Of a stretch of 39,002 bases of DNA, positions 8,830 to 30,601 are shown piece by piece. The notes beneath the pieces were generated by a model. The model searched no databases. It had not been told where the DNA came from and saw only the letters and a list, made by a program, of their open reading frames with translations. Position 1 is the stretch's first letter; each line of letters opens with the position of its first letter. Source of the stretch: Candidatus Kuenenia stuttgartensis (GTDB lineage Bacteria; Planctomycetota; Planctomycetia; Planctomycetales; Planctomycetaceae); NCBI GenBank assembly GCA_945906725.1, contig CAMDRI010000034.1, positions 1 through 39,002 on the forward strand, in the 5' to 3' direction. Position numbers and translations under genes: made by a program.

Positions 8830-9007
8830 CGTCATACTGCCGATAACGATCGACATCGGTTCGCGGAAAGAGTTGTTCGTCGATTCCATCGAGCAAAAAG
8901 CTGCGTGGAAAAATGCCACCGATACCAGCTCTCTCGCCGGCTAAGACGTGCGACTCCACTTCGTACTTCGCAACGGGGACTTGTTTTCGTTCAAATTTGC
9001 TGATTGA
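8830..9007 (+). pseudogene. C-terminal remnant of a GH32/GH43-like gene
   Basis: One frame reads DSIEQKAAWKNATDTSSLAG, an in-frame stop at 8942-8944, then DVRLHFVLRNGDLFSFKFAD and a stop at 9005-9007. It aligns with the end of the intact gene at 5128-6585 (DRIRQQVGWKQGSDVSKLAG, then VRLRFVMKDADLYAIQFP). Upstream of about 8830 I cannot follow the homology. It is therefore a truncated paralogue whose N-terminal bulk has been deleted, next to the C13-like pseudogene. Confidence 0.7.
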
Positions 9008-9033
9008 ATCCTGACAACGAACGGAGGTGCCGG

Positions 9034-10515
9034 ATGCTGGTCAGCACAACCAATTCGATGCTGGGACACGACTTGAGCCGTCGTGCCTTCGTGCGGCATG
9101 TACTAGCGGGCATCGGGGTTCTGAGTTTGCCAAATGTCTTGCGACTGCGGGCTGAAGCCGCGATCGCATCCGGAGCGCGAAAGCGTTCCCTGATTCTGCT
9201 CTGGCAAGATGGAGGGCCGAGTCACTTCGAGACGTTCGATCCAAAGCCTGAAGCGCCGGTCGAGTTTCGCGGAGAATTGGGAGCCATTCAGACAACGCTT
9301 TCAGGCGTGCAGTTCTGCGAAGTGCTGCCGCGACTGGCTCATCTCGCCCACCGGTTCAGCGTGATTCGCTCGCTGCATCAGCCCTCGTCGGATCATGTGG
9401 TTGGCTCGCACAATGTGCTCACCGGTTGGGACGGCGAGACCGAAGGTTCCAAGTCCCGGTATCCTGACCTAGCCTCGATCATCAGTCGCAAGCGAGCAGA
9501 AGAATCAGAAGGGGGCGCGCAGATCGGCGAATCAACAGACCCGCGTCTGGCGATGGGTTTGAAAAGGACCGGAACCAAGCGGGATGCCGGGACTGCTCGC
9601 CAGGAACTGCCGCGCTACGTCGACATCAGCAGCGGCCTGCATCGAGGCGGGCCGGCGTTTCTGGGGCCGATCCATGCGCCGTTCGCCGTCGCAGGTGATC
9701 CCTCGAAGCCAGATTTCGTTGTGCAGAATCTGCGAATGAAAGGCTCGCCGACGCAATTGAATGCTCGGCTGAGAATGCTTCAGGATTTGGACCGTTTTGG
9801 TCGCTCCGATCTGGGACTGACGGGCGTGGACTTCGCCGAGCAGATGCAAGCCACGGATGTCTTTCGCGGACAGGCCCTCGACCTGCTGACGGGAGCGGGA
9901 GCGGCCCGAGCCTTCGACTTGTCGCGCGAGACGGAACAGGTTCGGCAGCGTTATGGCTTGCACACCTCGGGGCAGCAGTGCTTGCTGGCGCGACGGCTGG
10001 TGGAAGCGGGCGTCAATATTGTCGCTGTTCGCTTTTGTCCGGACGGGCGCGGCGATTACGAAAAGACGATGATCGGCTGGGATGACCACGCCGTGCATGG
10101 AAACATCTTCGAGATCATGCGCCAGCGCGGGCCGCAGTTCGATCAGTCGGTGAGCGCGTTGATTGAAGATCTCTCGGACCGCGGGCTCGAAGATGAAGTG
10201 CTCGTCGTCGTTGCGGGCGAGTTCGGTCGGACGCCGCGAGTCCATGTCCACAAAGGCTGCCCTGGCCGAGAGCACTGGGGACCGGCGGGCTGTGCGTTGG
10301 TCTTCGGCGGAGGACTCAACATGGGACAGGTCGTCGGTTCGACCAACGACAAGGGGGAACAGCCGCTCGATCGGCCGTTCAAGTATCAATCTCTGTTAGC
10401 CACCATCTATCACAGCCTGGGGATCAACTTCGAACACACGTTTGTGAATAGCGCCGGGCGACCAGTCCCAATCTTGCCGCAAGGCGAAGTGATTCGGGAG
10501 CTCACGGGCGTCTGA
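9034..10515 (+). CDS. Tat-exported DUF1501 protein (orphan copy)
   Basis: A 493-residue DUF1501 protein with a Tat signal (SRRAFVRHVLAGIG). The ATG at 9034 is chosen over an upstream TTG because GGAGG ends 6 bases before it. The fold is related to alkaline phosphatase/sulfatase. Visible conserved blocks are LILLWQDGGPSHFETFDPKP near the N-terminus, QCLLARRLVEAGVNIVAVRF, GWDDHAVHGNIF, and VVAGEFGRTPRVH with GREHWGPAG near the C-terminus. Its biochemical role is not established in the literature I know. The usual planctomycete partner, a DUF1549/DUF1553 cytochrome-like protein, is missing here. Upstream lie only pseudogenes, so a partner may have been lost. Confidence 0.88.
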   Translation: MLVSTTNSMLGHDLSRRAFVRHVLAGIGVLSLPNVLRLRAEAAIASGARKRSLILLWQDGGPSHFETFDPKPEAPVEFRGELGAIQTTLSGVQFCEVLPRLAHLAHRFSVIRSLHQPSSDHVVGSHNVLTGWDGETEGSKSRYPDLASIISRKRAEESEGGAQIGESTDPRLAMGLKRTGTKRDAGTARQELPRYVDISSGLHRGGPAFLGPIHAPFAVAGDPSKPDFVVQNLRMKGSPTQLNARLRMLQDLDRFGRSDLGLTGVDFAEQMQATDVFRGQALDLLTGAGAARAFDLSRETEQVRQRYGLHTSGQQCLLARRLVEAGVNIVAVRFCPDGRGDYEKTMIGWDDHAVHGNIFEIMRQRGPQFDQSVSALIEDLSDRGLEDEVLVVVAGEFGRTPRVHVHKGCPGREHWGPAGCALVFGGGLNMGQVVGSTNDKGEQPLDRPFKYQSLLATIYHSLGINFEHTFVNSAGRPVPILPQGEVIRELTGV

Positions 10516-14779: not shown

Positions 14780-16195
14780 TTAGGCCAGCACTTTGCGAAC
14801 GACGTGGCCATGCACGTCGGTGAGCCGGAAGTCGCGGCCGGCGAAGTGATAAGTCAGGCGTTCGTGATCCAAACCCAGCAGGTGCAAAATCGTGGCATGT
14901 AGATCGTGGACGTGGACGGGATGCTCGATGGCGTCCCAGCCGAATTCGTCAGTGGCACCGTGAGTCATGCCTCTGCGGACGCCACCGCCGGCCAGCCACA
15001 TCGAGAACCCGAACGGATGATGATCGCGGCCGTCTTTGCCTTCGGCCGTCGGCGTGCGACCGAATTCGCCTCCCCAGATCACCAGAGTCTCATCGAGCAG
15101 GCCGCGAGTTTTCAGATCCTGGAGCAAGCCCGCGATCGGTTGATCGGTGGCGAGCGCGTTGGTCTCGTGACCGGCTTTGAGACCGCTGTGTTGGTCCCAG
15201 GGCTGGAAGCCTCCCGTCGTGTGATAGAGCTGCACGAAGCGCACGCCCCGCTCGACCAAGCGCCGGGCCAAGAGACATTGCCGTCCGAACAATTCCGTCT
15301 TCGGTTGGTCGAGCCCATACAGCTTGGCGGTCGCGGGTGTCTCACCGGCAAGGTCGAATGCATCGGGAGCCTCGGTCTGCATCCGGAACGCGAGTTCGAA
15401 CGCTTCGATGCGGGCGGTGAGTCGGTCGTCGTCCGCTCGTTGCTCGCGGTGCAGTCCATTCAAGCGAGCGAGTGCGTCGAGTTCGCGTCGCTGCCGGTCA
15501 CGCGGAACTTGCAGACTGCTGAGATTGCGGAGCGGCTGCACATGGTTCGAGACGAATGTTCCTTGATACGTGGCCGGGAGAAAGCTGGAACCATATTGCC
15601 GCGATCCTTCGATGATCGGGCCAGGGCCGATGGCGACGAATCCGGGCAGGTTCTGATTCTCGGTGCCGAGTCCGTAGGTCACCCAGGCACCGAGGCTCGG
15701 ACGCGAGAAGACGCGCTCGCCGGTGTTCATCAGCAAGCAGCCGCCGGGATGATTCGGGTCGTCGGTGACCATCGAACGAATCACGCAGATGTCGTCGATG
15801 CAGGTGGCCGTTCGCGGAAAGAGTTCGCTGACCTCCAGGCCCGATTGTCCGTACTTTTGAAACTTCCACGGTGAGGCGAGCAGTTTTCGCTGCTGGCCCA
15901 GATACAGCTTCGGCGACGGCTGGCCATCGTCTTGGGTCAGTCGCGGTTTTGGATCGAACGTGTCGACTTGCGAAGGACCACCGGGCATGAAGAGGAAAAT
16001 GACTCGCTTGGCTCGCGCGGCAAAATGCGGACGCCGCGCGGCCAACGGAAAGTCAGCGGCGGATGATTCGTCGCCAAGCAGCGCGGACAAAGCCAGCGCA
16101 CCGAAGCCTGCTCCGGTACGGCTCAGCATTTCGCGACGGTTCAGGCCGTGGGGCAGGTTTTCAACCTGCCCCACGAGTTGAGTGTTAATCGACAT
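14780..16195 (-). CDS. Tat-exported DUF1501 protein, paired with the DUF1553 gene
   Basis: A 471-residue DUF1501 protein. Tat motif LNRREMLSRTGAGFG starts near residue 18. Family blocks include VIFLFMPGGPSQVDTFDPKP, CLLARRLVERGVRFVQLYH, LVIWGGEFGRTPTAEG and DHHPFGFSMWLAGGG. The start is the ATG at 16195-16193, which overlaps the end of the DUF1553 gene by 11 bases, so translation is probably coupled. The longer in-frame extension is antisense-like noise lying over the upstream gene. Residues 8-17 (VGQVENLPHG) are encoded by a 29-base perfect hairpin repeat lying between the start codon and the Tat motif. The function of DUF1501 proteins is unknown; the fold is sulfatase/phosphatase-like. Confidence 0.9.
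   Translation of the reverse strand: MSINTQLVGQVENLPHGLNRREMLSRTGAGFGALALSALLGDESSAADFPLAARRPHFAARAKRVIFLFMPGGPSQVDTFDPKPRLTQDDGQPSPKLYLGQQRKLLASPWKFQKYGQSGLEVSELFPRTATCIDDICVIRSMVTDDPNHPGGCLLMNTGERVFSRPSLGAWVTYGLGTENQNLPGFVAIGPGPIIEGSRQYGSSFLPATYQGTFVSNHVQPLRNLSSLQVPRDRQRRELDALARLNGLHREQRADDDRLTARIEAFELAFRMQTEAPDAFDLAGETPATAKLYGLDQPKTELFGRQCLLARRLVERGVRFVQLYHTTGGFQPWDQHSGLKAGHETNALATDQPIAGLLQDLKTRGLLDETLVIWGGEFGRTPTAEGKDGRDHHPFGFSMWLAGGGVRRGMTHGATDEFGWDAIEHPVHVHDLHATILHLLGLDHERLTYHFAGRDFRLTDVHGHVVRKVLA
16147..16175. repeat. Perfect hairpin repeat inside a coding sequence
   Basis: CGTGGGGCAGGTT (16147-16159) pairs perfectly with AACCTGCCCCACG (16163-16175) around a TTC loop. It is translated in frame as part of the DUF1501 leader peptide. 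The first 24 bases are identical to each arm of the intergenic repeat at 23239-23297, so this is a dispersed element and not a chance palindrome. Confidence 0.9.
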
Positions 16196-19100
16196 AGACG
16201 AACTCATTCGTGCAGAGGATGACGCGACAGTAACGAGCCCAAGCCTCTTTGACAGCGGGATCGGCGACAAGTTGTCGGCCGATGTCGAACTCCATTGGCG
16301 TCGGCGCACGGCCGAGGGCCAGTTCATACAAGCGTGCGATGCGTTCATCGTTGCCACCGGAAGGGACTTCGCGAGCAACTCGCGCCGCGAGTGCCGCCGA
16401 GACGTCGTCGAGCAATGGGTCATTGAGCAGATACAACGCTTGCGGAGCGACAATCGACGGATTCCGCCGTTCGATGATGCCGCCGCCATCGGGGCCGTCG
16501 AACACCGAATTGAAGTCGGCCGTTTTCGCACCGGTGCGCGATGTCATCAGATAGAGCGTTCGTCTCGGCACAGCGACTTCCAGAAAGCCCGGCCCGCCGG
16601 GTGTCGCATCGAGCCGGCCGGAGACCGCCAAGAGCGCATCGCGAATCGCCTCGGCTTCCAAACGGCGGCGGGGCATGCAAGCCAACCAGCGGTTTTCGGG
16701 ATCGACCGTGCGTGTGGCGTCGGACGCGAACGTGCTCTGTTGATAGACACTCGACAAGACGATTGACCGATGCAGCGCCTTGATCGACCAGCCCGATTCG
16801 ATGAAGCGGCTCGCCAGGTGATCGAGCAGTTCCGGATGACTGGGCCGCTCGCCCCGCACTCCGAAGTTCGTCGAGGTTCGGACCAGACCCTCACCGAAAT
16901 GATGCTGCCAGATGCGATTGACCATGACGCGTGCCGTCAGTCCGCCTGCGGCGGAATCGGGGCGTGTCAGCCAGTCAGCCAGTTCGCGTCGGCCGCTTCC
17001 TTCTGAGATTCTTGGTGGATTGGTACCGGCCACGACCTGAGGAAAGCCTCGCGGAACCGTCTTGCCGGGCGTCGCAAGATTGCCACGAAGAAAAACTGGA
17101 GCATCCTGAAACCCTTCGTGCTTCGTTCCCTTGGGGCCGCCGTCTTGGACAACGACCGCCTGCGGAATCACGACGGCCGGTTTCTTCTTGAGCAACTCCA
17201 ATTCGTCGCGCTGCGCCGCGAGCCGATCGCGCACATCCTGTGGGAGTAATTGTGATCGGTCTGCCGCAGCGATCCAATACGGACTGCGCGAGGAGAGCAA
17301 CTCGTTATAGAACTCAGAGACGTCATCGCCGCTCGCCACTTGCTGGTCGAGAGGCGCGAGCCACCGAGTCCGCAGTTCGGCCTCGACTCGCACGCGAGCC
17401 GCTTCGTCGAGCGGGCTTCCATAAACTCGCAGCTCGCACAAGTCGCCGCGAAATCGCTGACCGGCACCCGAACCCGGTCCCCCGATCCGCAGGGCCGCAA
17501 TCATCGGATCGGACGAGACCGAATCAATCGCCTTGGTCGTGCCGATCACCTCGCCGTTGCGGAACAGAGCAACTCCGTCGGAGCCCCAAGTCAGGCTGAT
17601 CAATTGGAAATCCGAATTGGCCGGAGCTGGTGCGACGATGTCGCCGCTGGCTCCCGCTCGACGCACGATCGCATGAAGACCGCCCGCCGCGTTGGGCATC
17701 AAACCGAGTCCATGTTGTCCCACAGCCGAGTCTTCCCAGCCGATAAGGCGTGTCCCAGCACTGACAGCCGGGTCGGGACGAAAGACGGCGAACAACGAGC
17801 CGGTGAGCGGAACCGTCCGCAGCGACTGCAACACGGCTTCGCCATCAAACCGAATCACGGGGCGCGATTGCCCGTGAATCATTTCTGTCGCCAACACCGG
17901 CCCATGCGAATCGGGAGGTGGCGCGGCATCGTCGGCGATCGCCGCACGATCCGGCCACAGCGTGACCTGGCGCGACGCGTTGGTTGCGATGTGCCGATCA
18001 TCGGCGCGGAATTGCAAAACCTCGGCCGTCGCGAGCGACCGGGCCACCGAGTCGCGTGTGGTTCGTTCGCGACGGTCCGCCGCGATCACCGACAGCTTGT
18101 TCACCAGTTCCTCCGCCAGTCGCGCGCCGGTCACAGGATCGGTCTCGGCCAACAGTGGCAACAATGCCGCCGGTGGTGGTTGCTGGTTGAGGAACTTCGC
18201 CCAGCGTTCCAACGTCGACGCATCGAGCTTGCGAGCTGCTGCGAACTCCGCCAACACCCGCGGTTTCACATGGAAGAACTCGACCGCCGCCGGCAAGTCG
18301 CGTGGTGTTGCGACAACCACTTGCCGTTCGAGCTGCGACAAGAACTCCTGATCAGTGGCGACTTGAACGAGCTGCGACAGTTCCGCCAACCGCTGCTTAT
18401 CGCGCTGTTGTTGAGTGTTGATCGCCTGAATCTCAGCTGCCGGAAGCAGCGGCACTCGGACCAGCGGCGTGTTGCCCAGCACCGGACTGGGAATGACTCG
18501 CGTGCTGAAAAATATCCCCGCCATCGCGTAGTAGTCTTCGGTCGAAATCGGATCGAATTTGTGATCGTGACAGCGAGCACACGCCAGCGTGAGTCCGAGA
18601 AACGCTCGTCCTACCACGTCGATCTCATCGTTGACGTAATCGGCGATCATCTGTTGCTTATCGACATCGCCCGGAACGAAATCGGCGATCGCCAGCATCC
18701 CGGTCGCGACGAGCGCTTCGGCATCGATCTTTGTCGTGTCGGTTGGCTGCATCAGGTCTCCGGCCAGTTGCCGCGTGACGAATTCGTTGTACGGCAGATC
18801 CCGATTGAACGAGGCGACCACCCAATCGCGATACCGCCACGCTTCACGGAAGTCGCTCTCGATCGGCAACTGAATCAGATCGCGCGCGTCGGCGTAGCGG
18901 ACCACGTCCAGCCAGTGGCGACCCCACCGCTCGCCGTATTGGGGCGAGGCCAGCAACCGATCGACCACCTTTGCGAAAGCATCGGGCGAATCGTCAGCCA
19001 TAAACTCTCGCAACTCATCGGGAGTCGGAGGCAGGCCTGTCAGATCAAAGGTGATCCTGCGGAGCAGCGAGCGCTTGTCGGCAGGTGGAGCGGCAACAAC

Positions 19101-19616
19101 TCCCACAGCATCCTGCTGTGATCGAATGAACGCATCAACGTAGTTCGTCACCCACGCACCGTCTCGAACACTTGGCGGTATCACATAACGGATTGGCTCG
19201 AAGGCCCAGTGCTTCGCGGTTTCAAACTTCGCCGTCTTCGCGGGCCAGACAGCCCCCGCTTTGATCCAAGCTACGAAGTCCGCCACTTGCTCGGGCCGCA
19301 GAGCCTTGTCTTTCTCCGGCGGCATCGCAGAGACATCTTTCTGCCTCTGGATCGCGCGGATCAGCAAACTCTCTTCCGGCTTGCCCGGCACGATCGCCGC
19401 ACCGGAGGTGCCTCCCTTGAGCAGCATCTCGTGCGAATCGATTCGCAATTCACCGGACTTCTTCGAGTCACCGTGACAGCGCAGACAGGTCTCGACGAGG
19501 ATTGGCCGAATCTTCGCCTCGAAGAAATCTTCGCGATCGTCGGCATGCACCGCGCCGTTGCTCGCTGCCAACAGGCTCCCGGCCAGTATCACGCCAAGGC
19601 AGGTTGCTCGTTGCAT
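16185..19616 (-). CDS. PSCyt1-DUF1549-LamG-DUF1553 planctomycete cytochrome-like protein
   Basis: An exported 1143-residue protein. The signal peptide ends near AVHADD. A cytochrome c-like domain follows with heme motif C44-L-R-C47-H48, then IRIDSHEMLLKGG-type and AIQRQKDVSAMPPEKD segments. Next comes DUF1549, including FDLTGLPPTPDEL, SPQYGERWGRHWLDV and a second CxxCH in CARCHDHKFDPI. About residues 560-755 form an inserted concanavalin/LamG-like domain (LFRNGEVIG, GDLCELRVYGSPLDE). DUF1553 ends the protein (MVNRIWQHHFGEGLVRT to LCTNEFVYVD). GGAG lies about 9 bases before the ATG. It is paired with the overlapping DUF1501 gene. The family probably handles redox chemistry or binding of polysaccharides, but function is unproven. 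Confidence 0.92.
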   Translation of the reverse strand: MQRATCLGVILAGSLLAASNGAVHADDREDFFEAKIRPILVETCLRCHGDSKKSGELRIDSHEMLLKGGTSGAAIVPGKPEESLLIRAIQRQKDVSAMPPEKDKALRPEQVADFVAWIKAGAVWPAKTAKFETAKHWAFEPIRYVIPPSVRDGAWVTNYVDAFIRSQQDAVGVVAAPPADKRSLLRRITFDLTGLPPTPDELREFMADDSPDAFAKVVDRLLASPQYGERWGRHWLDVVRYADARDLIQLPIESDFREAWRYRDWVVASFNRDLPYNEFVTRQLAGDLMQPTDTTKIDAEALVATGMLAIADFVPGDVDKQQMIADYVNDEIDVVGRAFLGLTLACARCHDHKFDPISTEDYYAMAGIFFSTRVIPSPVLGNTPLVRVPLLPAAEIQAINTQQQRDKQRLAELSQLVQVATDQEFLSQLERQVVVATPRDLPAAVEFFHVKPRVLAEFAAARKLDASTLERWAKFLNQQPPPAALLPLLAETDPVTGARLAEELVNKLSVIAADRRERTTRDSVARSLATAEVLQFRADDRHIATNASRQVTLWPDRAAIADDAAPPPDSHGPVLATEMIHGQSRPVIRFDGEAVLQSLRTVPLTGSLFAVFRPDPAVSAGTRLIGWEDSAVGQHGLGLMPNAAGGLHAIVRRAGASGDIVAPAPANSDFQLISLTWGSDGVALFRNGEVIGTTKAIDSVSSDPMIAALRIGGPGSGAGQRFRGDLCELRVYGSPLDEAARVRVEAELRTRWLAPLDQQVASGDDVSEFYNELLSSRSPYWIAAADRSQLLPQDVRDRLAAQRDELELLKKKPAVVIPQAVVVQDGGPKGTKHEGFQDAPVFLRGNLATPGKTVPRGFPQVVAGTNPPRISEGSGRRELADWLTRPDSAAGGLTARVMVNRIWQHHFGEGLVRTSTNFGVRGERPSHPELLDHLASRFIESGWSIKALHRSIVLSSVYQQSTFASDATRTVDPENRWLACMPRRRLEAEAIRDALLAVSGRLDATPGGPGFLEVAVPRRTLYLMTSRTGAKTADFNSVFDGPDGGGIIERRNPSIVAPQALYLLNDPLLDDVSAALAARVAREVPSGGNDERIARLYELALGRAPTPMEFDIGRQLVADPAVKEAWARYCRVILCTNEFVYVD

Positions 19617-21962: not shown

Positions 21963-23237
21963 ATGGACAACGCGAAGTTGAATTTGAACGGGAAAGAATA
22001 CGACCTGCCCGTTGTCGTCGGCAGCGAGGGGGAGGTCGGCGTCGACATCACGACTCTGCGAGCCAAGAGCGGAGCGATCACGCTGGATTCCGGATACGGG
22101 AACACCGGAGCGTGCAAAAGCTCGATTTGCTTCATCGACGGCGAAGAGGGGATCCTGCGGTATCGCGGTTACGACATTGCCGATCTGGCCGAACATGCTT
22201 CGTTTGTCGAAGTCGCGCACCTGCTGATCTTCGGCGAGTTGCCGAACAAGCAACTGCTCGGCGTTTTCCGGGAAAAGCTGACGCGGCACAGCCTGATCCA
22301 CGAGGACATGAAGAAATTCTACGAAGGCTTTCCGCCGACCGCGCACCCGATGGCGGTGCTGTCGTCGATGGTTGCCTCGCTCTCGACGTTTTATCCGAAC
22401 GTCGATCGCGACGATCCCGATCAAGACATCATCCGGCTGCTCGCCAAAACCAAGACGATCGCGGCCTATGCCTACAAGAAGTCGATCGGACAGCCGACGA
22501 TTTATCCGCAAAACGAACTGTCGTACTGCGCGAACTTTCTGCGCATGATGTTTGCGATCCCGTGCGAGGATTACAAAGTCAACGACGTCTGGGTGCGAGC
22601 GCTCAACAAGCTGCTGATCCTGCACGCCGATCACGAGCAGAATTGCAGCACCTCGACGGTTCGTATCGTCGGCAGCAGCCAGGCAAATTTGTACGCCTCG
22701 ATCTCGGCCGGCATCAGCGCGCTCTGGGGCCCGCTGCACGGCGGAGCGAATCAAAGCGTGCTGGAAATGTTGGACCAGATTCGCAACGACGGATCCGACT
22801 ACAAGAAGTACGTGGACATGGCCAAGAACAAGAACAGCGGCTTCAAGCTGATGGGCTTCGGTCATCGCGTCTACAAGAACTTCGATCCGCGGGCCATCAT
22901 CCTGAAGAAGACCTGCGACGAGGTGCTCGGACAACTCGGCATCAACGACCCGCTGCTGGACATCGCCAAGAAACTCGAAGAGGTCGCGCTGCATGACGAG
23001 TTCTTCGTCGAGCGCAAGCTGTATCCGAATGTCGATTTCTACAGCGGCATCATTTATCGCGCGATGGGGATTCCCACGAACATGTTCACGGTCATGTTCG
23101 CGATCGGACGACTGCCCGGCTGGATTGCTCACTGGCGCGAGCAAAACGCCGACACGAGCAGCCGCATCAATCGCCCCCGGCAAATCTATACCGGCGCGAC
23201 GCTGCGAGCATTTGCGCCGCTGGAGAAACGCGGCTAG
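21963..23237 (+). CDS. gltA: Citrate synthase
   Basis: A full-length 424-residue type II citrate synthase that condenses acetyl-CoA and oxaloacetate into citrate in the TCA cycle. Catalytic residues are recognisable. The first histidine is in ILHADHEQNCSTSTVRIVGS, the second in MGFGHRVYKNFDPRA, and the aspartate in YPNVDFYSGIIYRAMGIP. The N-terminal small beta domain before IDGEEGILRYRGYDIADLAE is characteristic of the hexameric bacterial form. GGAAG lies a few bases before the ATG. The gene stands alone on the plus strand and its stop is followed at once by the inverted repeat at 23239-23297. Confidence 0.97.
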   Translation: MDNAKLNLNGKEYDLPVVVGSEGEVGVDITTLRAKSGAITLDSGYGNTGACKSSICFIDGEEGILRYRGYDIADLAEHASFVEVAHLLIFGELPNKQLLGVFREKLTRHSLIHEDMKKFYEGFPPTAHPMAVLSSMVASLSTFYPNVDRDDPDQDIIRLLAKTKTIAAYAYKKSIGQPTIYPQNELSYCANFLRMMFAIPCEDYKVNDVWVRALNKLLILHADHEQNCSTSTVRIVGSSQANLYASISAGISALWGPLHGGANQSVLEMLDQIRNDGSDYKKYVDMAKNKNSGFKLMGFGHRVYKNFDPRAIILKKTCDEVLGQLGINDPLLDIAKKLEEVALHDEFFVERKLYPNVDFYSGIIYRAMGIPTNMFTVMFAIGRLPGWIAHWREQNADTSSRINRPRQIYTGATLRAFAPLEKRG

Positions 23238-23238
23238 G

Positions 23239-23297
23239 CGTGGGGCAGGTTTTCAACCTGCCGTTTCAAGGCGGGCAGGTTGAAAACCTGCCCCACG
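23239..23297. repeat. 24-bp-arm perfect inverted repeat between gltA and the MscS gene
   Basis: The arms 23239-23262 and 23274-23297 are exact reverse complements around an 11-base spacer. Each arm is itself a small hairpin (GGCAGGTT, TTC loop, AACCTGCC). The arm sequence is the same as the element embedded in the DUF1501 gene at 16147-16175. It starts two bases after the gltA stop and ends 19 bases before the MscS start, so it could act as a terminator or RNA stabiliser, but it has no T tract. Confidence 0.9.
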
Positions 23298-28900: not shown

Positions 28901-29139
28901 CCGACAAGGGATTCCCTGGTCTGCCAACTCCACCAATGACGAATCAAATCGCGGCGGCGTGGCAGATTGCGTATCACCGACCGATTATGCCGACCGAGTT
29001 TGCCGCCGTGTGCGGATTTTTCCGGCAGCAGTTCGCGACGTTGTCTGAAACCCCGTCCATTGCCGATCCCGAATTGCAGGTGCTGATCGATCTCTGCCAA
29101 GCCTTGCTCACCTCGAATGAATTCTTGTACGTCGATTGA
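25999..29139 (+). CDS. PSCyt1-DUF1549-DUF1553 planctomycete cytochrome-like protein with inserted C-terminal beta domain
   Basis: A 1046-residue exported protein. I chose the ATG at 25999 (GAGG 8 bases upstream); the signal peptide ends near QSCRGQ. Heme motif C43-F-D-C46-H47 lies in the N-terminal cytochrome c-like domain. DUF1549 follows (FDLLGLPPSRDEVEDF, SPHYGERWGRHWMDA, and second CxxCH in CAQCHDHRYDPI). DUF1553 begins at LANRLWMHHFGRGLVG. Between VRLEAAA and QIAAAWQIAYHRP, about 200 residues form an inserted beta-sandwich-like domain (PLRPGDLWQIGYGEF through SFAWSITIKLKG). DUF1553 then resumes and ends LLTSNEFLYVD. It is followed after 10 bases by its DUF1501 partner. The layout differs from the first pair, where the extra domain lies between DUF1549 and DUF1553. 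Confidence 0.92.
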   Translation: MYALHSMRQWNLVIAVMLLVSQSCRGQELTFETHVRPILKAHCFDCHGAEEDPKGKLDLRLVRLMVKGGESGTAIELGKPDASLFLRRIKAGEMPPGQVKVSAREIEVLEKWIAAGAKTARAEPAEIGKGLGITDEERSYWAFRPLKRPAVPQTKNPKLEARNSIDAFVLAKLQERDLAFGPEADQATLFKRAYFDLLGLPPSRDEVEDFVNDTEPDAYERVIDRLLASPHYGERWGRHWMDAAGYADSDGYSNADVDRPWAYKYRDWVIRALNDDKPIDEFIVEQLAGDEFLNGKFANLSPSDIDRLTATGFLRMVSDGTGDGSVDQDLAKNAVMAETLKMVSSSLLGLTVGCAQCHDHRYDPISQVDYYRMRAIFEPSLNWKRWQGRLKTLYTDADRAASAAIEADVAKVAAEKNTKQTEYMAKALELELAKHPEDLRGKLRDAYNTPGDKRSPEQQQLLKERPSVNISPGVLYQYLPKEADELKAFDTRMDEMRAKKLVEEFLHCLAEEDGEPPPTHLFHRGDHRQPKEVIKAAMLEIATPPGQLIEFPVNDPSINSTGRRLAFAKHLVSGRDPLFPRALANRLWMHHFGRGLVGTPGDFGQLGERPTHPELLDWLALEVMSGSNTNASSPLSFKRLHRLLMTSTVYRQSTARRPELDPVDPSNLLLGRMSVRRLEAEAMRDRVLAASGSLSNAMFGKPIAIAEDFVGQVVVNDMSRRSVYVQQKRSKPETLMRAFDAPVMECNCDKRPASTVATQSLMLMNSEFALKQAGLLAARVRLEAAAMSSKPLPFEFDPSLLPLRPGDLWQIGYGEFDGSTKRTKSFTKFAHWTGSQWQGGPIVPDPAIGYSFLNAAGGHTGNDQQHATIRRWTAPIGGTVSISGSLHHLSENGDGVRSRVVSSRTGLAAEFIAEHKTVDANIAAIEVQPGETLDFITDCRESVTSDSFAWSITIKLKGTDGKEIAWAADKGFPGLPTPPMTNQIAAAWQIAYHRPIMPTEFAAVCGFFRQQFATLSETPSIADPELQVLIDLCQALLTSNEFLYVD

Positions 29140-29149
29140 GGAATTAACG

Positions 29150-30601
29150 ATGCCCGAAAACTTTGACAGTCTCCGACCCACTCGACGCGAACTGCTCGCG
29201 AAAGGGACGCTCGGCATCGGCGGCGTTGCGCTGGCTTGGTTGCTGAACCAAGAGAATCTGCTGGCCGTGCCGGCGACCGTGAAGCTCAAGCCGCAGTCGT
29301 TTGACTTGAAGCCGAAGCAGCCGCCAGGCGAAGCGAAGGCGCGGGCGATGATCTCGCTGTTCATGCACGGCGGGCCGGCGCACATGGATTTGCTCGACCC
29401 GAAGCCGGAGCTGACGAAATTCAACGGGACCGATTACCCCGGCGAGGTCATTTACAGCTTCGTCAATCGAGCCAGCAAGAAACTGCTCGGCTCGCCGTGG
29501 AACTTCGCGAAGCACGGCGACTGCGGAACCGAAGTGTCCGAATTGTTGCCTCACACGGCGCAGGTCGTCGATGACTTGTGCGTGATTCGATCGATGCACT
29601 CCGGGCACAACGGACACGAAGTCTCGATCCGGTACTGGCAACAAGGCATCCCGGCGGTTGTCGGGCGGCCGACGCTCGGAGCGTGGCTGACATACGCGCT
29701 CGGCAGCGAATCGCAGAGCTTGCCGGCGTACATGGTGCTCAGCGATCCCGGCGGGCATCCCGTGGACGGCGTGCTGAACTGGTCGAACGGTTTCATGCCG
29801 CCGCTGTTTCAAGGGACGGTACTGCGTGCACAGGAACCTCGGATTCTCAACCTCGACCCGCCGCCGCATTTGAAGGGGACGTTGCAGGCTCAGAATCTCG
29901 ACTTGCTACGAGTCTTGAATCGCCGACATCTCGAACTTCATCCGGGCGAGGCGGACCTCGAAGCTCGCATCCAGTCGTATGAGCTGGCCGCGCGGATGCA
30001 GACGGCGGCGAAGGAAGCACTCGACTTGTCGCAAGAGACCGAGGAAACGCAAAAGCTCTACGGTTTGGACAAGGACGAAACACGCGAGTACGGCACACGC
30101 TGCTTGATCGCTCGACGACTGGTGGAGCGTGGCGTGCGTTTCGTGCAGTTGTTCCTGGGCGGTCAACCTTGGGACACTCACACCGGCATCCGTACCGCGC
30201 TGCCCGCGATCTGCAAAAGGACCGATCAGCCGGCTGCCGCACTGGTCACGGATCTCAAGCGGCGCGGATTGCTCGACAGCACGATTGTCCATTGGGGCGG
30301 CGAGATCGGGCGGCTGCCAGTGACCGAAGGCGATCCCGCGACCTGCGGTCGAGACCACAACGGCCAAGGCTTTTCGACGTGGCTCGCCGGCGGAGGCATC
30401 AAGCCCGGAATGACGTTCGGCGAGACCGACGAATTCGGCCACCGCGCGGTCAAGGACATCGTCACAGCGAATGACTTCCAAGCCACGCTGCTGCATCAAT
30501 TCGGCCTGGATCATTTGAAGCTGGCCTTCATCCACAACGGGCAAGAACAAACTCTGACCGCCAAACGTGAGTGCCGAGTTGTCCGCGAAATCCTGGCGTG
30601 A
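29150..30601 (+). CDS. Tat-exported DUF1501 protein, paired with the DUF1553 gene
   Basis: This 483-residue protein carries a Tat motif (TRRELLAKGTLGIGG). The ATG at 29150 has GAGGA 7 bases upstream; an earlier in-frame ATG at 29117 overlaps the preceding gene and is less likely. Family blocks: MISLFMHGGPAHMDLLDPKP, CLIARRLVERGVRFVQLFL, VHWGGEIGRLPVTEG and GRDHNGQGFSTWLAGGG. The protein is collinear with the copy at 14780-16195 but clearly diverged from it. Its leader lacks the hairpin-encoded insert seen there. Both cassettes have the same order, DUF1553 then DUF1501, which argues for a functional pair. The enzymatic role is unknown. Confidence 0.92.
   Translation: MPENFDSLRPTRRELLAKGTLGIGGVALAWLLNQENLLAVPATVKLKPQSFDLKPKQPPGEAKARAMISLFMHGGPAHMDLLDPKPELTKFNGTDYPGEVIYSFVNRASKKLLGSPWNFAKHGDCGTEVSELLPHTAQVVDDLCVIRSMHSGHNGHEVSIRYWQQGIPAVVGRPTLGAWLTYALGSESQSLPAYMVLSDPGGHPVDGVLNWSNGFMPPLFQGTVLRAQEPRILNLDPPPHLKGTLQAQNLDLLRVLNRRHLELHPGEADLEARIQSYELAARMQTAAKEALDLSQETEETQKLYGLDKDETREYGTRCLIARRLVERGVRFVQLFLGGQPWDTHTGIRTALPAICKRTDQPAAALVTDLKRRGLLDSTIVHWGGEIGRLPVTEGDPATCGRDHNGQGFSTWLAGGGIKPGMTFGETDEFGHRAVKDIVTANDFQATLLHQFGLDHLKLAFIHNGQEQTLTAKRECRVVREILA

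Follow-up and report, generated by a model that had tools for sequence, protein, structure and literature searches.

The DNA analysed here is a single stretch of 39,002 nucleotides (the window). It contains three DUF1501 genes (9004-10515, 14780-16195 and 29117-30601), the second of which carries a short palindrome in its leader. The relevant genes and repeats are as follows.

14780..16195, minus strand: DUF1501 gene (PF07394), 471 aa, with a Tat-type NRREML motif, assigned by translation and Pfam family
16124..16141, minus strand: codons of NRREML, by translation
16145..16183, minus strand: extra stretch of 39 nt (8 nt + palindrome + 2 nt) that encodes TQLVGQVENLPHG, defined by alignment with the empty orthologues of genomes G001, G005 and G008; the ends are ambiguous by a few nt
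16147..16175, no strand assigned: perfect palindrome of 29 bp, CGTGGGGCAGGTT-TTC-AACCTGCCCCACG, with a CGTG tag at both ends and a perfect half-stem of 13; the fused (single) form of the repeat
16185..19616, minus strand: DUF1549/DUF1553 gene (PF07583, PF07587, PF07635), with its TAA stop within the DUF1501 reading frame, 9 nt ahead of the palindrome
21963..23237, plus strand: citrate synthase C-terminal domain gene (PF00285), whose stop codon adjoins the doublet at 23239-23297
23239..23297, no strand assigned: standard doublet (CGTG-hairpin, 11-nt spacer between 24-base arms, hairpin-CACG) that begins 1 nt past the stop codon

The palindrome folds into a perfectly paired stem of 13 bp with a 3-nt loop and begins 20 nt after the A of the DUF1501 ATG (16195). 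Minus-strand positions 16174-16145 encode VGQVENLPHG, which corresponds to residues 8-17 counted from that ATG and precedes NRREML, presumably a twin-arginine motif. Twenty-four bases of the palindrome (16147-16170) are identical to 23239-23262 and to the reverse complement of 23274-23297. An earlier sequence-only reading of the window had described this perfect 29-base hairpin about 20 bases past the start, its in-frame peptide and the 24 bases common to each arm of the intergenic repeat, and the coordinates and translation bear out each of these points. It had also stated that the other two DUF1501 leaders lack the insert. This agrees with our inspection of the leader and junction at 29117 and with an arm search (up to 5 mismatches) that finds only 16147 and 23239 in the window. 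DUF1501 paralogues are very numerous in the genome, with 127 scored matches among 211 first-look candidates; a regular-expression survey of DUF1501 recognised 32 genes only, and no rate is drawn from it.

The palindrome belongs to a dispersed repeat family. A genome-wide search with a 21-base core (up to 2 mismatches), a check that the sequence-only reading had suggested, returns 99 places in the 5.45-Mb genome that contains the window (the own genome, G000; other genomes of the genus are labelled G001 and so on, with L-numbers for loci and C-numbers for contigs), and the reversed pattern returns none. Within the window, the 17-base centre (up to 3 mismatches) matches six times, at three places on both strands each, against 0.12 matches expected. 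An exact-core search of 59 genomes finds between 1 and 185 copies in 11 of the 12 genus members and no copy in any of the 47 other relatives. Copies were studied in the fetched stretches and the window (101 sequences, 1.23 Mb, selected around core hits and DUF1501 genes), using gene calls from our own hexamer caller. In this set, the 24-base arm (up to 5 mismatches) detects 139 arms that make up 84 elements, 55 of them inverted pairs and 29 singles, and the reversed arm detects none at the same threshold.

A doublet consists of CGTG+GGGCAGGTT-TTC-AACCTGCCC, a spacer and then the reverse complement. The spacers of pairs span 2-129 nt, the pairs measure 50-177 bp (typically 58-60 bp), and a CGTG, mostly with a T ahead of it, forms the outer end. 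In a second subfamily one base pair of the stem is exchanged (CAGG/CCTG to CACG/CGTG): of the 139 arms, 99 have G-C and 27 have C-G at stem pair 9-19. This swap between subfamilies indicates that the local hairpin is kept. Across the 139 arms, doubly changed stem pairs are still paired in 38 cases and unpaired in 5, and one-sided breaks number 129. A long hairpin that spans both arms was considered as the conserved unit and rejected because it is weaker than the local hairpins and because four pairs combine arms of different subfamilies. A cousin doublet is found in a named groundwater planctomycete (L069:9641-9697), with the same CGTGGGGCAGG end, 5 mismatches in 24 and another loop; the search that located it yielded 3 arm matches among 80 loci (878 kb). 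The CGTG-tagged type may thus extend beyond the genus.

Called genes fully enclose 27 of the 84 elements; another 54 are intergenic and 3 overlap a gene edge. The in-gene share is far below the 86% coding share. Coding support reaches a score of 10 or more on both flanks for 19 of the 27 in-gene copies and is weak on one flank for the other 8. The window copy is among these 8, and its placement in a gene is decided by the orthologues. A Pfam scan of 20 host proteins identifies gyrB, ftsK, a PBP2-like transpeptidase, cinA, gamma-glutamyltranspeptidase, a halogenase-like protein, DUF1553 and others. One frame, VGQV[FS]NLP / GQVENLPH, is used by 35 of 43 coding arms (VGQV.NLP in 18 of 22 upstream arms, GQVENLPH in 17 of 21 downstream arms). 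In frame and loop tests that were devised post hoc, with the data already seen, the 18/22 bias gives p 4e-6 against one in three and p 0.002 against one in two, and a loop change from TTC (Phe) to TCC (Ser) is observed in 12 of 22 upstream coding arms versus 6 of 90 intergenic arms (p 1.5e-6). The loop is changed in only 4 of 21 downstream coding arms, where the change would replace Glu with Gly. The TCC excess in upstream coding arms suggests selection on the peptide.

The conserved host genes differ in how they accommodate the element. In cinA, the element occupies the same place in 9 of 10 loci (G001 was missed by the motif), is decayed in G003 and represents both stem subfamilies across species. 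In gyrB, a related hairpin-like GQ/GH stretch is located at the same linker in six of eight full loci and is missing from G007 and G001. Alignment to solved homologues shows about 20 net extra residues for the PBP2-like copy and 6 for the halogenase copy; the gyrB and ftsK alignments to solved structures stop short of the element. The copies in CinA (L176:10591-10649) and gamma-glutamyltranspeptidase (L182:12014-12037) align without any net gain, as though they had replaced native sequence. This counts against simple insertion at these two sites, since simple insertion does not predict it.

Where do the intergenic copies reside? The CGTG edge lies 0-3 nt past a stop codon in 22 of 57 non-genic elements and at most 10 nt past it in 27 of 57, against 2.0% and 5.4% expected, respectively, from 709 element-free intergenic regions. 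Other intergenic edges end at a stop triplet in 3 of 67 cases, and intergenic CGTGGG words outside elements are within 3 nt of a stop in 0 of 93. The stops at abutting sites are 17 TGA, 9 TAG and 3 TAA (487, 226 and 150 in the genome). TGA as a target word is ruled out by the 3/67 other edges and by a stop usage that matches that of the genome. Likewise, the idea that the element supplies the stop codon is ruled out at the citrate synthase gene, where the stop is present in all nine loci read, with or without the element (G001 and G009 were missed by the motif, and G008 is partial and was not passed). The citrate synthase site contains doublets in the own genome, G005 and G007, a single in G006, a remnant in G003 and no element in G011. 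The presence of doublets and the G006 single at one site supports the collapse of a doublet to a single. By eye, other long palindromes follow the citrate synthase stop at L304, L305 and L306 (G010, G002 and G004), where the own genome, G005 and G007 have the CGTG doublet. The DUF1501 copy begins 9 nt past the DUF1553 stop, and the leader insertion is thus a variant of the stop-adjoining habit.

The history of the DUF1501 leader can be read from its orthologues. The alignment comprised the eight genus orthologues whose leader is visible; G019 (dropped by the motif), G002 (residues 151-471 only) and G003, G009 and G011 (no close orthologue) were left out. Three of the eight (G001, G005 and G008) have an empty leader, M[SL]I[ND]LNRREM, whose ATG overlaps the DUF1553 stop, and the own leader is 39 nt longer than these. 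Of seven outgroup loci, two (L062 and L067) share the short, empty leader that starts at an ATG overlapping the DUF1553 stop; the leader of L150 (G019) is longer, L066 is arranged differently, and three yielded no leader. The absence of residues 8-17 from G001, G005, G008, L062 and L067 indicates that the insert is lineage-specific, and by comparison with these empty alleles the leader palindrome is an insertion. The empty leaders and the open frame thus agree with the sequence-only reading that a palindromic element entered a signal-peptide region without breaking the frame. That reading had named two outcomes that would speak against it, namely VGQVENLPHG with non-palindromic codons in unrelated orthologues and a lack of other core copies; neither was found in the orthologues and genomes compared. 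The refilling of the site by other hairpin families and the abutment of stop codons go beyond that reading. A target-site duplication of the MITE kind is not clearly visible in the single filled/empty comparison, the ends of which are ambiguous. The gene tree groups the own genome with G006 and G008 (support 97/95), and these close relatives are therefore in three different leader states.

In four other orthologues, this DUF1553|DUF1501 junction is filled by different hairpins, in frame in G004, G006 and G007 and out of frame in G010. G004 and G006 share another hairpin with a 29-bp stem. The G007 hairpin is of a third kind (GTAG-tagged, 25 bp), and that of G010 is of a fourth (23 bp), with a new ATG directly ahead of AACCGTCGC that replaces the old start. 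A DUF1501 paralogue on own contig C221 and G005 contig C292 contains a further hairpin and its own downstream start. The hairpins of the four orthologues are themselves dispersed repeats. An 18-mer of the G004/G006 family is present in 11 of 12 genus genomes (17 copies in G004, 16 in G006), a 16-mer of the G007 family in 12 of 12 (50 in G007) and, with up to 2 mismatches, a 19-mer of the G010 family in 9 of 12 (35 in G010); each reversed control gives 0. The paralogue regions L141 (G000 contig 221) and L142 (G005 contig 292) are nearly identical, whereas other compared genes differ by 4-6% in protein, which suggests a recent transfer or a misbinned contig.

A mobilising enzyme was sought among Y1 transposases. 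The own genome (92% complete) has four, none flanked by the repeat. Eleven of the 12 genus genomes contain 91 Y1 matches, and among 31 loci checked an arm pair is near one, more than 1 kb away, which we estimate to be about the level given by element density. A Y1 transposase link was rejected, as no association is found in the own-genome and genus flanks scanned. A different double hairpin lies just 3' of an own-genome Y1 transposase gene (L151:1119-1167) and is possibly a REP-transposase unit.

We propose, with a probability of roughly 0.85, that the leader palindrome is a REP/REPIN-type selfish element, a fused-single copy of which would have inserted recently at the DUF1553|DUF1501 junction of one lineage, where it would be translated as 13 extra n-region residues and persist as a near-neutral coding passenger. 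The compared sequences directly display its dispersal, the insertion relative to empty orthologues, the open frame, the repeated filling of the junction, the in-gene copies and the excess at stops. The doublet most likely moves in a REPIN-like manner through an HUH/RAYT-type transposase, and the single form would arise from it by deletion between the two arms. The fused single would have entered the junction just past the DUF1553 stop. Because this stop is inside the DUF1501 frame, a position just past it is also in the Tat leader, so that the element would be translated with the frame intact. The extra residues would be produced in the cell. The Tat n-region would be a place where an insert does no harm, and the insert is probably tolerated since the n-region and other loops are permissive. 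The element is most likely a near-neutral selfish passenger rather than a regulator.

A regulatory role is nonetheless the first alternative to be weighed. The hairpin at the DUF1553 stop may be kept for an operon function, slowing or attenuating translation or protecting the upstream RNA and thereby setting the DUF1553:DUF1501 ratio, with leader translation as a by-product. Junction stems of at least 13 bp, formed by unrelated sequences, are found in five of eight orthologues (own, G004, G006, G007 and G010) and the C221 paralogue. The corresponding counts are 69 of 399 for tandem junctions in the fetched stretches, a repeat-enriched set, and 3 of 129 for junctions no longer than 40 nt. The junction was, however, picked after being noticed and before the stem comparison, which weakens this contrast. 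The 22 of 57 non-coding elements that abut stops favour an operon function as well, and E. coli REPs at most 15 nt from a stop are reported to lower translation (PMC12306157). The 71-nt leader RNA has a predicted fold of -29.5 kcal/mol (z -4.0). The RNA hairpin may affect coupled translation, as the sequence-only reading had suggested, but the predicted folds leave the start codon outside the 13-bp hairpin. Moreover, three of the eight orthologues and two outgroup loci do without a hairpin, and the other DUF1553|DUF1501 junction of the window (29139) has no such insert. We consider an operon function unlikely.

A more general scheme, which we also consider unlikely, would cover several unrelated hairpin families of this genus. 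They would be sent to the bases that directly follow any stop, or be retained there by selection, and termination rather than a DNA word would mark the site. Where genes overlap, an intergenic element would become a coding one, DUF1501 being the example. Within certain housekeeping genes (cinA and gamma-glutamyltranspeptidase), the element would have overwritten native coding sequence at constant length and then co-evolved as hairpin and peptide.

It is quite improbable that the element is untranslated. In that case DUF1501 would begin 3' of the palindrome (at the CTG that precedes AACCGT, or at some other codon), and the hairpin would be only an intercistronic REP. G010 and the C221/C292 paralogues do start downstream, at an ATG ahead of AACCGTCGC, and many REPs at annotated N-termini may be extragenic according to Di Nocera et al. 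(PMC3733652). However, the codon at that place is CTG in the own genome and G008 and ATC in G004, and G006 and G007 have no usual start there; L067, with ATC at that place, has to use the upstream ATG. ATGTCGATT or ATGTTGATT is retained in the own genome, G008, G004, G006 and G007. Furthermore, the frame is open through the insert in the own genome, G004, G006 and G007, and three different inserts are unlikely to be in phase by chance. A GTG within the palindrome (residue 8) may also serve as the DUF1501 start. Finally, an ancestral palindrome that was lost in some species, its palindromy being kept by chance, is largely refuted and has very little probability left: deletions can be precise and elements decay or vanish at the citrate synthase site (G003, G011), but G001 and the outgroup loci are empty, and the inserts of the own genome, G004/G006, G007 and G010 are mutually unalignable, each being a dispersed repeat elsewhere.

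The insertion of a selfish hairpin as a near-neutral coding passenger, which we favour, matters beyond this locus. One gene leader offers a natural series, empty or with four or five different inserts among close relatives, in which selfish hairpins become protein and the gene remains unbroken. It also extends coding selfish hairpins beyond Rickettsia and to essential genes. Two questions become testable: whether foreign peptide is freely accepted by a Tat leader or a housekeeping loop, and why short palindromes lie directly past stop codons. REPs within ORFs and near stops are already known; the new aspects are the CGTG tag, the share of copies that lie in conserved genes in one frame, the exact abutment of stops and the filling of one leader by several families among close relatives. 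In the open-access literature, neither the repeat or peptide letters nor coding palindromes or in-frame palindromic insertions in Planctomycetes were found.

The closest known systems are REPs and REPINs. REPs are described as mostly intergenic and near the 3' ends of ORFs; some lie in ORFs, tags can provide stop codons, and roughly the same position in recB is occupied by different REPs (PMC3733652). REPINs are inverted REP doublets, and singles are their remnants (PMC3116915). Planctomycetes are named among the hosts of REPs and of one TnpA class (PMC3733652, PMC6006769). The present family resembles these descriptions in that its short palindromes are numerous and largely arranged as inverted pairs with outward tags and spacers of variable length, in that singles derive from doublets, and in its mostly intergenic location near gene 3' ends. 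It differs in that the tag is CGTG, not GTAG or CGTC, that no linked RAYT was found in the own genome or at the 31 genus Y1 loci, that about a third of the copies examined are in genes and that edges are often 0-3 nt from a stop.

Other systems share single properties with the element. In E. coli, one tool places 446 of 4,072 REPs within 15 nt of a stop (PMC12306157); hairpins right after stops are thus common to both, but 22 of 57 elements here are within 0-3 nt. In Nematomorpha mitochondria, perfect inverted repeats are likewise translated, with arms that encode conserved protein parts (PMC6649704), whereas the arms here are a dispersed repeat. Rickettsia palindromic elements are described as in-frame and intergenic, 105-146 bp long, located in 19 genes in the first report, with at least one active product (PMC2229807), and some end in CGTC (PMC3733652). 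The likeness to these elements that the sequence-only reading had drawn holds for behaviour, since both kinds of palindromic repeat occur intergenically as well as in frame within conserved protein genes (27 of 84 in genes here), and fails for tag and length: as described, the Rickettsia elements are set apart from the CGTG-tagged singles of 24-29 bp and pairs of 50-177 bp that populate this free-living planctomycete lineage.
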